Shown one piece after another: positions 4,426 through 52,570 of a stretch of 64,000 bases of DNA. A program made the translations under genes and the position numbers. The stretch comes from Aequorivita sp. CIP111184 (lineage in GTDB: Bacteria; Bacteroidota; Bacteroidia; Flavobacteriales; Flavobacteriaceae). The first letter of the stretch is position 1, and each line of letters begins with the position of its first letter. The notes under the pieces are model-generated. The model saw only the letters and a program-made list of their open reading frames with translations. It was not told the origin of the DNA and ran no database searches. The DNA lies in the NCBI RefSeq assembly GCF_900489465.1, contig NZ_UEFQ01000029.1:1-64000 (forward strand), given 5' to 3'.

Positions 4426-5166
4426 TTAAGGGTTTTGGGTTTCTTCTTTTGGAGCTTCAGTTTTCTTAAAAATTGGAATTAGATAGGAAATTGAATATCC
4501 ATATCCTACTCCGAATTTACTATAATCATAGGTTCTGTTGAAACCGGGAATATATAAATTGGCGAAATTTTCCGGTTGGTCTTCTGTGATTCTTCTTTTA
4601 ATTTGAGCGTTTATTGAAAGATAAACATTGTTGAATATTTCGGTTTTTACGCCAATAATAACTTCGGCCCAATGTGCGGTCAAACCACTAAACTCTTGTG
4701 GCTCATTTATAACTTGAGATGGAAATGCAGGATTATCAGTATAGATTCTGTAACTTAAAAGTTCCTGTTTAAAAGTTGAAAAACCATAGCGGAGTCCAAG
4801 TGTAATTGCGTTTTCCATTCCCAACCAGTTTTCATAAGCATTGTAATCAAAACCTATTTTAGCATAGCTTCCACTGGTTTTTGATGTAACGTAAGGCTCT
4901 ATCCAATCTTTCTTTTCATTACCAAGTTCCAAAGCTGCATAGAACTTTTTTGTCACCCTGAAATCGCCCATAATTTCAAAGCCGGAATAACCATCTTCAA
5001 TCAGCGTTCTTATGGGTTTTGCTAAATCTACTCCCACACGTATCCCGTATTTTTCAATTTTAGGAACTGTATCGGTAGTTGTTTCATTTTTCTTTTGCGC
5101 CAAAGAAATTTGGGCGCTACAAAAAAGACTAATGAAGAATAGTAAGGTGAGCTTCGTTTTCATCAT
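4426..5166 (-). CDS. DUF6048-type outer-membrane beta-barrel protein
   Basis: A 246-residue exported protein. The signal peptide covers residues 1-23 (LLFFISLFCSAQISLAQ). Alternating aromatic and polar beta-strands follow (YGIRVGVDL, YAALELGNEKKDW, YAKIGFDYNAYE, GVGYGYSISYLIP), and a short charged tail. It looks like an 8-10-strand outer-membrane barrel of the PorT/OmpW-like fold. It overlaps the upstream DUF6452 gene by 38 nt. To my knowledge this pair behind rlmD is conserved in Flavobacteriaceae, suggesting a linked envelope role. The function is unknown. Confidence 0.7.
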   Translation of the reverse strand: MMKTKLTLLFFISLFCSAQISLAQKKNETTTDTVPKIEKYGIRVGVDLAKPIRTLIEDGYSGFEIMGDFRVTKKFYAALELGNEKKDWIEPYVTSKTSGSYAKIGFDYNAYENWLGMENAITLGLRYGFSTFKQELLSYRIYTDNPAFPSQVINEPQEFSGLTAHWAEVIIGVKTEIFNNVYLSINAQIKRRITEDQPENFANLYIPGFNRTYDYSKFGVGYGYSISYLIPIFKKTEAPKEETQNP

Positions 5167-48713: not shown

Positions 48714-49091
48714 TTATTCTTTATTGACTTTGGCCTTCATGATGGTAGCTGTTTTCTCACAATTTTCAACTGTAATCTTTAATTTTTTTTCTGAAATTAT
48801 TCCTTCAATAACATAAATGTTGCAAGAATCAAGTTTGGTATTGCTTTCAGAAAATAATACATCACCATCTTCAAGTAAGGCTGAAACTGCGGCTGTGTCC
48901 ATTTGATTTTCACGCAAAACGTTCAGCGACTCTTCAGAAAAAGCCCGTTGTTTTAACTTGATATTTTTAAGTGTTCTAGACTCGGGGCCATAGGCGCAAG
49001 ATGTTTTTTTTCCGCTGAGAATAAAAAATAAAAGGGCTATTCCTATTATAAATCCACCTGAAAAATAGACCAATCGGTATGCTAACTTCAT
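48714..49091 (-). CDS. Membrane-anchored small protein (DUF4258-like)
   Basis: A 125-residue protein. The single N-terminal TM helix is about residues 6-26 (YFSGGFIIGIALLFFILSG). The rest is soluble and has two Cys residues (SCAYGP and LDSCNIY). I recall flavobacterial homologues labelled DUF4258. The gene starts 37 nt downstream of alanine dehydrogenase, so it is likely co-transcribed. The function is unknown. Confidence 0.65.
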   Translation of the reverse strand: MKLAYRLVYFSGGFIIGIALLFFILSGKKTSCAYGPESRTLKNIKLKQRAFSEESLNVLRENQMDTAAVSALLEDGDVLFSESNTKLDSCNIYVIEGIISEKKLKITVENCEKTATIMKAKVNKE

Positions 49092-50386: not shown

Positions 50387-50920
50387 TTACCGAAATAAAT
50401 CTTTTATCTGTTCCCAGAAAGATCGTTTGTGCAAAAGTTCTTCCTCAAAAGACTTTAAATCATTCTGACGCATTTGGCTAAAAAGTTTGGCGCGTATTAA
50501 ATAGACAAATGGAACCAATACCATCATTATTGGTATTACGTAAATGATCTCAACCTCGTCAGCATTTAAATTTTGTTTAAGTATGTTGAACAATTGAAAA
50601 ACATACATAGATAAGGGAACCAATATTATCCAATGCCACCAGTGTTTACAAGTGAAAAACCAAATAAGCAGTAAAATTACTGGAATTACTTTACCTGCAA
50701 GAAACCAAGCATAATGATATAAAGATGTGTATTCAGTAGTGAATGTAAAAAAAGGAGTTTCCCAAACTTGGGTGTTGCTTGGGAAACTCTCATATGCATA
50801 ATATATAAAAGGAGTACACGCCATTATAAAAACGATAATGCCTCCCTGTATAAGGCTTTTTTTATCCGGCTGGCGGAACTTGAACCGTTCTAACGTCGAT
50901 TTGTTGTGGGGTGTTTTCAT
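50387..50920 (-). CDS. Multi-pass membrane protein of a duplicated module, copy A
   Basis: A 177-residue protein with a charged N terminus (MKTPHNKSTLERFKFRQPDKKS) and four probable TM helices (about residues 24-43, 65-90, 92-110, 125-148: GGIIVFIMACTPFIYYAYE, VIPVILLLIWFFTC, HWWHWIILVPLSMYVFQLFNIL, VIPIMMVLVPFVYLI). The tail is DLKSFEEELLHKRSFWEQIKDLFR. The start at 50920 is inside the 46-residue lipoprotein gene, overlapping by 59 nt. No known domain was recognised. A paralogue lies at 51379-51891. The function is unknown. Confidence 0.75.
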   Translation of the reverse strand: MKTPHNKSTLERFKFRQPDKKSLIQGGIIVFIMACTPFIYYAYESFPSNTQVWETPFFTFTTEYTSLYHYAWFLAGKVIPVILLLIWFFTCKHWWHWIILVPLSMYVFQLFNILKQNLNADEVEIIYVIPIMMVLVPFVYLIRAKLFSQMRQNDLKSFEEELLHKRSFWEQIKDLFR

Positions 50921-51002
50921 CTTGAATTCCTTCTGGGGTACAAGAAGCAAAAAGTCCTGCTGCGAAAATAGCTGCTACGATAATCAATTTTAAGTTTTTC
51001 AT
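50862..51002 (-). CDS. 46-residue lipoprotein of the duplicated module, copy A
   Basis: A 46-codon gene. The lipoprotein signal LIIVAAIFAAGLFASC has the Cys at residue 21, followed by TPEGIQDENTPQQIDV. The start ATG sits 32 nt downstream of a perfect -10 element. It overlaps the membrane-protein start by 59 nt in another frame. It is nearly identical in organisation, and similar in sequence, to copy B at 51833-51973 (shared CTPE-IQ-E-TPQQI). The conservation of both the frame and the overlap supports a real gene. Confidence 0.8.
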   Translation of the reverse strand: MKNLKLIIVAAIFAAGLFASCTPEGIQDENTPQQIDVRTVQVPPAG

Positions 51003-51378
51003 AATGTAAGTGTTTGTGAGGTTAATACTGGGTCAAACTTACACTCAAAAAACTTAAGTCTACTAATTATGTTAATTGTATCTTTACAGGTTATAATGCA
51101 ATTAAATACTTTGAAATACACTTTTAATGATATTTTAAAGTTAATTTTTTAATATTCCTATAAACGCTATGCTATTATTTCATATTTGTCTGCAGTATCT
51201 TAAAGATTCACTTCAGTACTTTATTTGTTTTATTAGTTCGATTTGAGATTGGATTGTTTCTATATTTTTTTGATTTCACATAAAAATAAGAAAATGTGTT
51301 TAATCATCCAAAAGGTAAAACTTTTACTTAGACGAACGAATGTACGTATTTAATTTATCATTTTAAAAATTAAGAAAA
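51003..51378. other. 376-nt spacer between the two modules
   Basis: It holds the copy A promoter at its left end. The rest is AT-rich, with only chance-length frames (the longest I noticed is 27 codons) and no clear terminator, RNA or repeat. Confidence 0.5.
51034..51041 (-). promoter_or_regulatory. -10 element (TAAGTTTG) of module copy A
   Basis: On the minus strand a perfect TAnnTTTG. The same octamer precedes copy B at nearly the same distance. The leader carries the shared sequence TTAACCTCACAAA. Confidence 0.55.
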
Positions 51379-51891
51379 TCAGAAAAGATCCTTAATCTGT
51401 TGCCAGAAGTTTTTTTGTGTGCCTAATTCCTCTTCAAAACTTTTCAGATCCTTGCCTATTAACTTGTTTGAAAGTTTAGCTTTTATTAGGTAAACCAAGG
51501 GCACGATTACCAACATTATAGGAAAAAGCCACCATATTTCAACTTCATCTGTAATACCTACATCATCATTTATCACACTGAATAATTGGAATGCGAACAT
51601 TCCAATTGGAATAAGAATAACGTGATACCACCAGTGCTTACATGTAATAAACCAAATAACTAAAAGAAGCATGGGAACAAACTTGCCCATCATTGTCCAG
51701 ACAGAGACGTATACTTCTTGGTACCAATTTGCATGGTATGTAAACAAAAAAGTTTCCCACGATTTTGTTTGTGGGAAACTTTCATATGAATAAAATAAAT
51801 ATGGACTAGCCGCTATTATTAGGGCTATAATACTACCCGTTACTAGGTACGATGATTTTGCTCTTGTGGATTTGTTGGGGTGTTTGTTCAT
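51379..51891 (-). CDS. Multi-pass membrane protein of a duplicated module, copy B
   Basis: A 170-residue protein, paralogue of copy A. The N terminus is MNKHPNKSTRAKS, followed by four probable TM helices (about residues 20-38, 58-82, 84-102, 118-142: LVTGSIIALIIAASPYLFYSYE, FVPMLLLVIWFITC, HWWYHVILIPIGMFAFQLF, LFPIMLVIVPLVYLI). Shared blocks with copy A include YSYESFP, WFxTCKHWW, FPIMLVIVP/PIMMVLVP and DLKSFEEEL with the tail FWxQIKDLF. Its start is inside the lipoprotein gene, with the same 59-nt overlap as copy A. The function is unknown. Confidence 0.75.
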   Translation of the reverse strand: MNKHPNKSTRAKSSYLVTGSIIALIIAASPYLFYSYESFPQTKSWETFLFTYHANWYQEVYVSVWTMMGKFVPMLLLVIWFITCKHWWYHVILIPIGMFAFQLFSVINDDVGITDEVEIWWLFPIMLVIVPLVYLIKAKLSNKLIGKDLKSFEEELGTQKNFWQQIKDLF

Positions 51892-51973
51892 TCTGGATGC
51901 TTTCTGGGGTGCAAGAAGCAAAGGTTCCTAATGAAAAAATTGCTACGATAAAAAGGTACTTTAGAGTTTTCAT
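51833..51973 (-). CDS. 46-residue lipoprotein of the duplicated module, copy B
   Basis: A 46-codon gene. The lipoprotein signal FIVAIFSLGTFASC has the Cys at residue 21, followed by TPESIQNEQTPQQIHK. It has the same length, Cys position, CTPE-IQ-E-TPQQI motif and 59-nt overlap with its downstream membrane-protein gene as copy A. The leader has the -10 element and TTAACCTCACAAA sequence in common with copy A. Confidence 0.8.
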   Translation of the reverse strand: MKTLKYLFIVAIFSLGTFASCTPESIQNEQTPQQIHKSKIIVPSNG

Positions 51974-52003
51974 AATATATAAGTTTTTGTGAGGTTAATA
52001 GGC

Positions 52004-52011
52004 CAAACTTA
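52004..52011 (-). promoter_or_regulatory. -10 element (TAAGTTTG) of module copy B
   Basis: A perfect minus-strand TAnnTTTG, 31 nt upstream of the lipoprotein ATG, in the same context as copy A (TAAGTTTG then GCC/ACCC and TTAACCTCACAAA). Confidence 0.55.
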
Positions 52012-52156: not shown

Positions 52157-52570
52157 TTATTTCACTAGCTTTAATTTTAAGGTTCTGCTTCCGTTATTAT
52201 TTTTTGTAATGTATATCTTGTCTGTATTGTTAGGCAATAGTTTATCAATCTTTTCTGGCCACTCTATAAAAACATAATGCCCGCTATATAGATAATCTTC
52301 TACTCCAATATCATAAGCCTCAACAATATTATTAATTCTGTAAAAATCAAAATGATATATAGTATCTTTTGAAGTATGATACTCATTTACAATCGAAAAT
52401 GATGGACTATTTGATATTTCATCAATACCAAGTTGTTTAACAATCTCTTTAATCAATGTAGTTTTTCCCACTCCCATATCACCATAGAAAAGTAATATTT
52501 TGGAGACGGATGAGACTAAGATCTGTTCAGCAACTTTGGGAATTTCGGTCTGGGTATAAGTAAGTTCCAT
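52157..52570 (-). CDS. tsaE: tRNA threonylcarbamoyladenosine biosynthesis ATPase TsaE
   Basis: A 137-residue P-loop ATPase. Walker A is GDMGVGKTT at about residues 30-38 (K36), NSPSFSIVNEY is the family switch segment, and FIEWPEKI is the conserved C-terminal motif. It supports TsaB/TsaD in making t6A37 in ANN-decoding tRNAs. It is downstream of porX on the same strand with an 86-nt gap. The length is near the typical 135-160. Confidence 0.92.
   Translation of the reverse strand: MELTYTQTEIPKVAEQILVSSVSKILLFYGDMGVGKTTLIKEIVKQLGIDEISNSPSFSIVNEYHTSKDTIYHFDFYRINNIVEAYDIGVEDYLYSGHYVFIEWPEKIDKLLPNNTDKIYITKNNNGSRTLKLKLVK

Follow-up and report, generated by a model that had tools for sequence, protein, structure and literature searches.

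What does a lipoprotein gene of only 46 codons do when it partly lies on top of the gene for a membrane protein, and is this arrangement more than a local accident? The question is raised by the window, i.e. the whole 64-kb stretch of Aequorivita DNA analysed here, where the minus strand between tsaE and ald carries two successive lipoprotein/membrane-protein pairs in head-to-tail order. On balance, we give a probability of about one half to the reading that each pair is a two-gene cassette, in which a short secreted peptide would be the ligand or a regulatory subunit of the membrane protein encoded with it.

Two overlapping gene pairs between tsaE and ald

The features of the locus are the following:

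52157..52570, minus strand: tsaE, the conserved upstream neighbour of the cassette (Pfam TsaE)
51986..52011, minus strand: copy 1 -7 box TAAGTTTG with leader TTAACCTCACAAA, a combination seen at the two cassettes and nowhere else in this genome
51833..51973, minus strand: copy 1 small lipoprotein P0003 with Cys21 and tail QQIHKSKIIVPSNG, an ORF of 46 codons plus stop
51833..51891, minus strand: copy 1 two-frame overlap of 59 nt, the membrane ORF being read from an internal ATG
51379..51891, minus strand: copy 1 multi-helix membrane protein P0001, 170 aa, inferred start codon
51013..51041, minus strand: copy 2 -7 box TAAGTTTG with leader TTAACCTCACAAA, the second of the two occurrences in this genome
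50862..51002, minus strand: copy 2 small lipoprotein P0004 with Cys21 and tail QQIDVRTVQVPPAG, an ORF of 46 codons plus stop
50862..50920, minus strand: copy 2 two-frame overlap of 59 nt, the membrane ORF being read from an internal ATG
50387..50920, minus strand: copy 2 membrane protein P0002 of 177 aa, predicted to form four long helices, inferred start codon
49129..50328, minus strand: ald (alanine dehydrogenase, Pfam), the usual downstream neighbour

The ORF coordinates confirmed what had originally been described for this locus, namely two head-to-tail pairs, 46-codon lipoproteins with a cysteine at position 21 and a common tail motif, and an overlap of 59 nt in both copies (51833-51891 and 50862-50920). 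The two lipoproteins share the motif CTPE[SG]IQ[ND]E[QN]TPQQI, and in both of them Cys21 follows the residues FAS, in agreement with the substrate pattern of signal peptidase II. In both pairs the ATG of the membrane protein is located inside the lipoprotein gene, 59 nt before its end. Since both membrane frames stay open further upstream to a TTG, this start remains a predicted one; it is supported by the conservation of a methionine at the same place, which was found in 74 of the 83 projectable relatives from a first set of 90 membrane ORFs, most of the others having a Met a few residues away.

The promoter box and leader reported before each copy were also recovered, as the pattern TAAGTTTG-N4-8-TTAACCTCACAAA occurred twice in the window, at these genes (spacers of 8 and 5), with 0.00 occurrences expected by shuffling. 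Downstream of ald, a 125-aa protein (48714-49091, minus strand), found near ald in most loci, showed only sub-cut-off similarity to DUF4258 in Pfam.

The locus had been called tandemly duplicated, suggesting a recent copy. The two membrane proteins of the window are 50% identical to each other. In a midpoint-rooted tree of 125 rows, from which short frames had been dropped and in which 18 Aequorivita loci had been thinned to 3, copy 1 grouped with locus L135 and copy 2 with a 55-row clade including other genera, both nodes being starred (well supported). As the copies fall into different supported clades, a recent tandem duplication was rejected and the pairs are old paralogues, or one of them is an old acquisition; the 13-nt leaders of both copies are nevertheless identical. 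The cassette itself, located downstream of tsaE and usually before ald, is likewise old.

Pairing, genomic place and joint absence

The membrane protein was detected in 277 of the 397 genomes of a Flavobacteriaceae family sample and in 23 of 28 Aequorivita genomes, 20 of these 23 showing at least two matches, one of these a weak extra. Outside the family it is rare: all 8 positive genomes in a phylum sample of 296 belong to the family, and 3 of the 14 positive genomes in an order sample of 246 lie outside it. The DNA was read at 70 loci from the genus search and at 60 places chosen by hand among the family matches listed, with more weight on distant ones; 56 loci (L008-L063) overlapping this set were left out of the count. 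Peptide pairing was counted over family loci, with the three order-sample genomes outside the family set aside. Removal of duplicates and of frames longer than 250 aa (two-domain paralogues) gave 156 distinct membrane homologues, including the two of the window.

A small ORF with a signal-peptide-like start was located directly upstream of 152 of these 156 homologues. The original prediction would have been refuted by membrane homologues lacking such an ORF, and the four exceptions found are additional paralogues at L178 and L187, where the loci's own cassettes do have one. A comparable lenient rule fired at 42 of 545 large control ORFs, in many cases because the membrane gene itself precedes ald, and the comparison with 152/156 indicates that the small ORF is not there by chance. 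Under a strict lipobox rule, 109 of the 152 cassette peptides were recognised against 1 of 596 control ORFs. A narrower first lipobox pattern had returned no peptide at nine loci (L047, L051, L053, L062, L093, L097, L101, L109 and L123); the later rule found it in all five of those that entered the count.

Some loci carry additional copies of the membrane domain. The paralogues without a peptide ORF lie as two single-domain genes in tandem (L178:2190-3414 and L187:5225-6446), near an HTH-like gene (assigned by eye) that gave only sub-cut-off Pfam matches. Proteins of about 400-440 aa with further membrane-domain copies occur near the cassette in L138, L163, L165, L171, L173 and L189, and an HTH-like gene, also assigned by eye, adjoins some of them.

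The genomic place of the cassette is nearly constant, with TsaE encoded upstream in 126 of 130 loci and ald downstream on the same strand in 121. The distance from the membrane gene to ald was below 200 nt in 83 loci, 200-2600 nt in 15 and 2.6-3.9 kb in 23, whereas the nine loci without a downstream ald comprised six short loci and three that are not short. The 23 loci with a spacing of about 2.6 kb (2.6-3.9 kb; e.g. L134, L140 and L156) belong mostly to the group without a lipid anchor described below. No kinase, regulator or protease was seen within the cassette in the neighbourhoods of the loci examined.

Both genes are also absent together. In the 5 of 28 Aequorivita genomes lacking the membrane protein, the best peptide-profile matches among those listed had values of 3.4e-5 to 8.2e-4 and fell in frames of 161-339 aa, and a weaker one (0.0057), in a 55-aa frame of genome G005, covered profile positions 1-30 only; among the matches listed for four cassette-bearing genomes of the genus the values were 6e-24 to 6e-19. 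At four of the five cassette-less Aequorivita sites (L256-L259) tsaE is directly followed by ald, both cassette genes being gone, and no signal-peptide ORF was listed between them. Two of four further cassette-less sites (L262 and L263) also showed tsaE followed by ald. The other two, L260 and L261, from two genomes of one genus, carry between tsaE and ald a GNAT-like gene, as judged by eye, instead of the cassette. The earlier proposals that the small gene is conserved as a protein, that both genes are kept together and that they have their own promoter are supported.

A small secreted peptide adjoining a membrane protein might also be a toxic peptide or bacteriocin with its immunity protein, and cassettes can indeed be absent or multiply. 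The fixed place across the loci examined, the limited diversification of the peptide within Aequorivita and the anchor signal present in most peptides make this explanation highly improbable.

The overlap of the two genes had been described as exactly 59 nt in both copies and taken as a sign of selection for coupled synthesis. With the last Met ahead of the first helix taken as the membrane start, an overlap was seen in 130 of the 152 cassettes (59 nt in 79 of them) and none in 16, and 6 could not be assigned; reading from the first Met gave 132, 14 and 6 respectively. The overlap is therefore usual but not required, and coupling by exactly 59 nt was rejected as a general rule. The selection test suggested for the overlap gave a divided answer. 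In Aequorivita the second codon position of the peptide was the least variable and the peptide frame was favoured over the membrane frame, with identities of 0.81 vs 0.75 (n=17; third frame 0.60) and, in a second set, 0.87 vs 0.78 (n=21; third frame 0.75). In 15 sequences from other genera the difference was weak (0.44 vs 0.37, third frame 0.38), and this comparison of frame identities alone does not settle which frame of the overlap is constrained.

Leader, anchor and tail of the peptide

A box TANNTTTG was found within 150 nt upstream of 143 of the 152 peptide starts, against 15.3 expected by base shuffling, and at -36 to -40 in 123 cassettes. In Flavobacterium psychrophilum, TAnnTTTG is the consensus of the -7 element used by the primary sigma factor (PMC9723704). 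The leader AACCTCACAAA was present without mismatch in 75 of 87 cassettes, namely in 34 of the 38 Aequorivita-like and 41 of the 49 related ones, and in none of the 65 others. The clade without a lipid anchor has a leader of its own, the 20-nt TTAATTAATTAAATCCCTTA. Of 20 genomes, 11 contain this leader a single time, each at the cassette, and no further occurrence was found in the 20; seven of the nine genomes without it have a cassette and two do not. Because this pattern was chosen from such cassettes, its uniqueness and not its presence is the result.

In the genome under study, GTTTG-N4-10-WAACCTCACAAA occurred at two places, both in this locus, and it was absent from four cassette-less genomes of the genus (G005, G022, G024 and G027). 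A genome-wide regulon was not seen either: a scan of 39 genomes, 24 of the genus and 15 from other families of the order, with none from other genera of the family, returned 35 matches, all within the genus and, as judged by coordinates, all at cassettes except one (G013:C8). A private and conserved leader argues for a dedicated control of the cassette transcript.

Such strong conservation, together with the location of the membrane start codon inside the small ORF in most cassettes, would also suit a cis-regulatory device, with the small ORF and its leader serving as a leader peptide or 5'-UTR element for translation of the membrane protein. However, the signal peptide and tail are kept even where the genes do not overlap, and the repeated tails described below would have no obvious use in a leader. 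A search for an RNA element with stable structure gave nothing (z-scores of 1.70, 0.45, 1.39 and -0.18, and no Rfam match near the gathering score). We therefore consider this explanation very unlikely, while the leader may regulate in addition to the role of the peptide.

The lipid anchor noted in the original prediction did not hold up as the key feature. The lipobox cysteine is absent from one tree clade of about 40 rows and from the pair L159/L164, and the signal peptides of this clade resemble signal peptidase I types (AQA, AYA); the tree rows L164 and L186, labelled as carrying Cys, have it only in the hydrophobic core. The lasting features are the signal peptide, a variable [IV][DE]Kxx[IV]xxPxxG-like tail, the partner and the private leader.

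The tail is kept even in cassettes whose genes do not overlap and in those lacking the Cys. Peptides ended in Gly in 129 of 152 cases and in another residue in 23. Of 151 unique peptides, 37 contained the strict motif [IV][DE][KR]xx[IVL]x(1-3)P, compared with a mean of 0.2 and a maximum of 3 after shuffling, so that most peptides have only a looser form of the tail. Five precursors repeat it two to six times: the L159 precursor (4557-4889) contains six copies of the unit IDKFQKPPKHG, L164 three, one of them degenerate, and L169, L170 and L173 two each. The last 14 residues of 114 peptides not of the Aequorivita type had a mean charge of +1.4.

When P0001-P0004 and other small peptides were scanned against Pfam and NCBIfam, only matches below the curated cut-offs were obtained. 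Among them, the PG1828-family lipoprotein (NF050142) resembles the peptide in its short lipoprotein signal peptide (weak matches, E 0.03 and 0.028), but the match covers residues 1-31 only, at about 15 bits against a cut-off of 50.

Since it is the tail that is repeated and retained, all partners read are membrane proteins, and both overlap and anchor are dispensable, the peptide may act at the outer face of its partner, either as a ligand or as a regulatory subunit. In the proposed mechanism, the signal peptide would direct export of the peptide, which in this genome is a predicted lipopeptide of 26 residues; the C-terminal tail would act on the periplasmic side of the membrane protein, and the latter would then pass on, or be gated by, this contact. 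The pairing, joint absence, secretion signal, recurring and repeated tail, private promoter and leader and fixed place after tsaE are shown at sequence level; lipidation, direct contact, the periplasmic side and the ligand or regulatory role are putative. In these marine flavobacteria the peptide and membrane genes are retained or lost as a pair, and some peptides have gained repeated units, which suggests that the peptide works on the membrane protein it is encoded with; the earlier proposal that lipoprotein and membrane protein form a complex is plausible. Points against the proposed mechanism are the loose tail, the weak structural model described below and the lack of a kinase, regulator or protease in the cassette.

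The main rival is a constitutive two-subunit membrane complex, in which the small (lipo)protein would be a structural accessory subunit with no part in signalling. Near-constant pairing and joint absence, the fixed place and the small change of the peptide within Aequorivita agree with it, and a slowly changing gene pair at a constant place among housekeeping genes could equally be a constitutive subunit or a signal. Up to six tail copies in one precursor and the loss of the anchor in a whole clade would instead be odd for a 1:1 structural subunit, and small lipopeptide ORFs also occur beside sensor kinases, as reported below; we regard this explanation as doubtful, though it deserves serious consideration.

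Membrane partner, related pairs and known systems

The AlphaFold model of P0002 showed four long helices and is a weak one (pLDDT 69.6, pTM 0.50); a search of the PDB with it gave no match at E<=0.001. The loops placed in the periplasm by the analysis have net charges of -3 and -2, the N-terminus +5; with the mean tail charge of +1.4, these values speak for the proposed mechanism. Cys91 and His93 were present throughout an alignment of 51 sequences, two from the window and 49 from the 70 genus-search loci, and His93 is lost in two of the three L175 cassettes (CRDWW, CSKWW).

Such invariant residues would fit a membrane protein that processes or exports the peptide, as in the AgrBD system, which consists of the AgrD precursor and the membrane endopeptidase AgrB. 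The cassette resembles it in combining a precursor of similar size with a small multi-helix membrane protein. It differs in having no AgrB match for P0001 or P0002 in Pfam or NCBIfam, no strictly kept Cys/His and no kinase or regulator, its neighbours being tsaE and ald, and in its precursors, which already have signal-peptide-like starts. These differences make a processing role unlikely. Enterococcal pheromones are likewise derived from lipoproteins, and the cassette lipoprotein would similarly be a possible source of an extracellular peptide; the enterococcal signal, however, is cut from the signal peptide, whereas the recurring and repeated part of the cassette peptide is its C-terminal tail.

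The peptide profile also matched, among the matches listed, small lipoproteins with other partners. A second membrane family was identified in 14 of 299 genomes, including this one. At 13 of its 15 loci a small Cys-bearing signal-peptide ORF lies upstream, and all 13 pairs overlap when the membrane frame is read from the first Met; the remaining two loci, L306 and L307, are weak matches with no small ORF upstream. The strict tail motif was present in 7 of 11 second-family peptides (shuffled 0.0, largest 1), the L295 peptide repeating that of L294, while a twelfth, L299, lacks the motif and the L308 peptide contains the unit twice. Comparison of the two membrane families by HHalign returned a probability of 7.5% and a single-pair E of 0.0047, values that do not establish homology between them. 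The genome under study carries one such unlinked pair (L296; G000:C14:143369-143965), a 51-residue lipoprotein (CTPENQISDEQAIEKPKVCPPGDRNCNGILDSQE) overlapping a different membrane protein.

Small lipoprotein ORFs were also found upstream of genes of the TPR-histidine-kinase type. Of the 33 kinase matches, 30 were read, in six genomes, and 15 of these loci contain an ORF of 500 aa or more and enough sequence ahead of it; a small lipoprotein ORF preceded 8 of the 15, or 7 of 14 once the query is set aside. Among 596 control ORFs there was a single such case, the query's own locus; the controls come mostly from around tsaE and are not a random genome sample. A domain scan covering six of these eight proteins and the query, with the seven kinase-type ORFs lacking the lipoprotein ORF left out, gave TPR and kinase-type matches, some below the cut-off. 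The tail motif was present in none of the eight kinase-linked peptides, which share mainly the signal and a CTP-like start, so that a common descent of the peptides does not follow. The tails are acidic in second-family peptides (-3.0) and in those beside kinases (-3.75), and charge pairing between tail and partner is therefore not a general rule.

The step from pairing to signalling, which we infer, is helped by these sensor-kinase neighbours. RRNPP receptors are intracellular TPR proteins of 250-500 aa (PMC10075063). RRNPP quorum-sensing pairs of Firmicutes, a propeptide with its TPR receptor, are like the cassette in that the gene of a small secreted propeptide lies directly beside that of its partner; at the kinase-linked loci the partner is also a TPR protein, with kinase domains. 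They differ from it in that the cassette partner is a multi-helix membrane protein of 170 or 177 aa, and no TPR match was found in Pfam for P0001 or P0002.

A wider reading may tentatively be entertained, though we think it less likely than not: a family-wide peptide language in Flavobacteriaceae. Its words would be small propeptides that are exported, in many cases with a lipid anchor, and end in a short code at the C-terminus; the gene of each would overlap or immediately precede that of a dedicated membrane receptor, and some lineages would make multi-copy precursors. The code would be [IV]DKxxIxxPxxG-like in two families of membrane partners, with other tails beside TPR sensor kinases. If true, it would be a periplasmic counterpart of Gram-positive peptide-receptor pairs.

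To our knowledge, peptide communication and peptide control of membrane sensors are little described in Bacteroidota, and a full-text literature search found no description of such a peptide/membrane pair, which is not proof; in our opinion, genes this small may escape routine annotation. The near-strict pairing, the recurring tail, natural multi-copy precursors, clade-wide removal of the anchor and joint absence make the system directly testable.

Two genes of the TPR-histidine-kinase type were noted in the genome under study. One of them (L270) has no small lipoprotein ORF upstream, and the other (L268; G000:C38:51648-53084) follows a small lipoprotein ORF (CTPQTMSEEVKSAQACCGDDGDFPPPPPPIGGTGGG).
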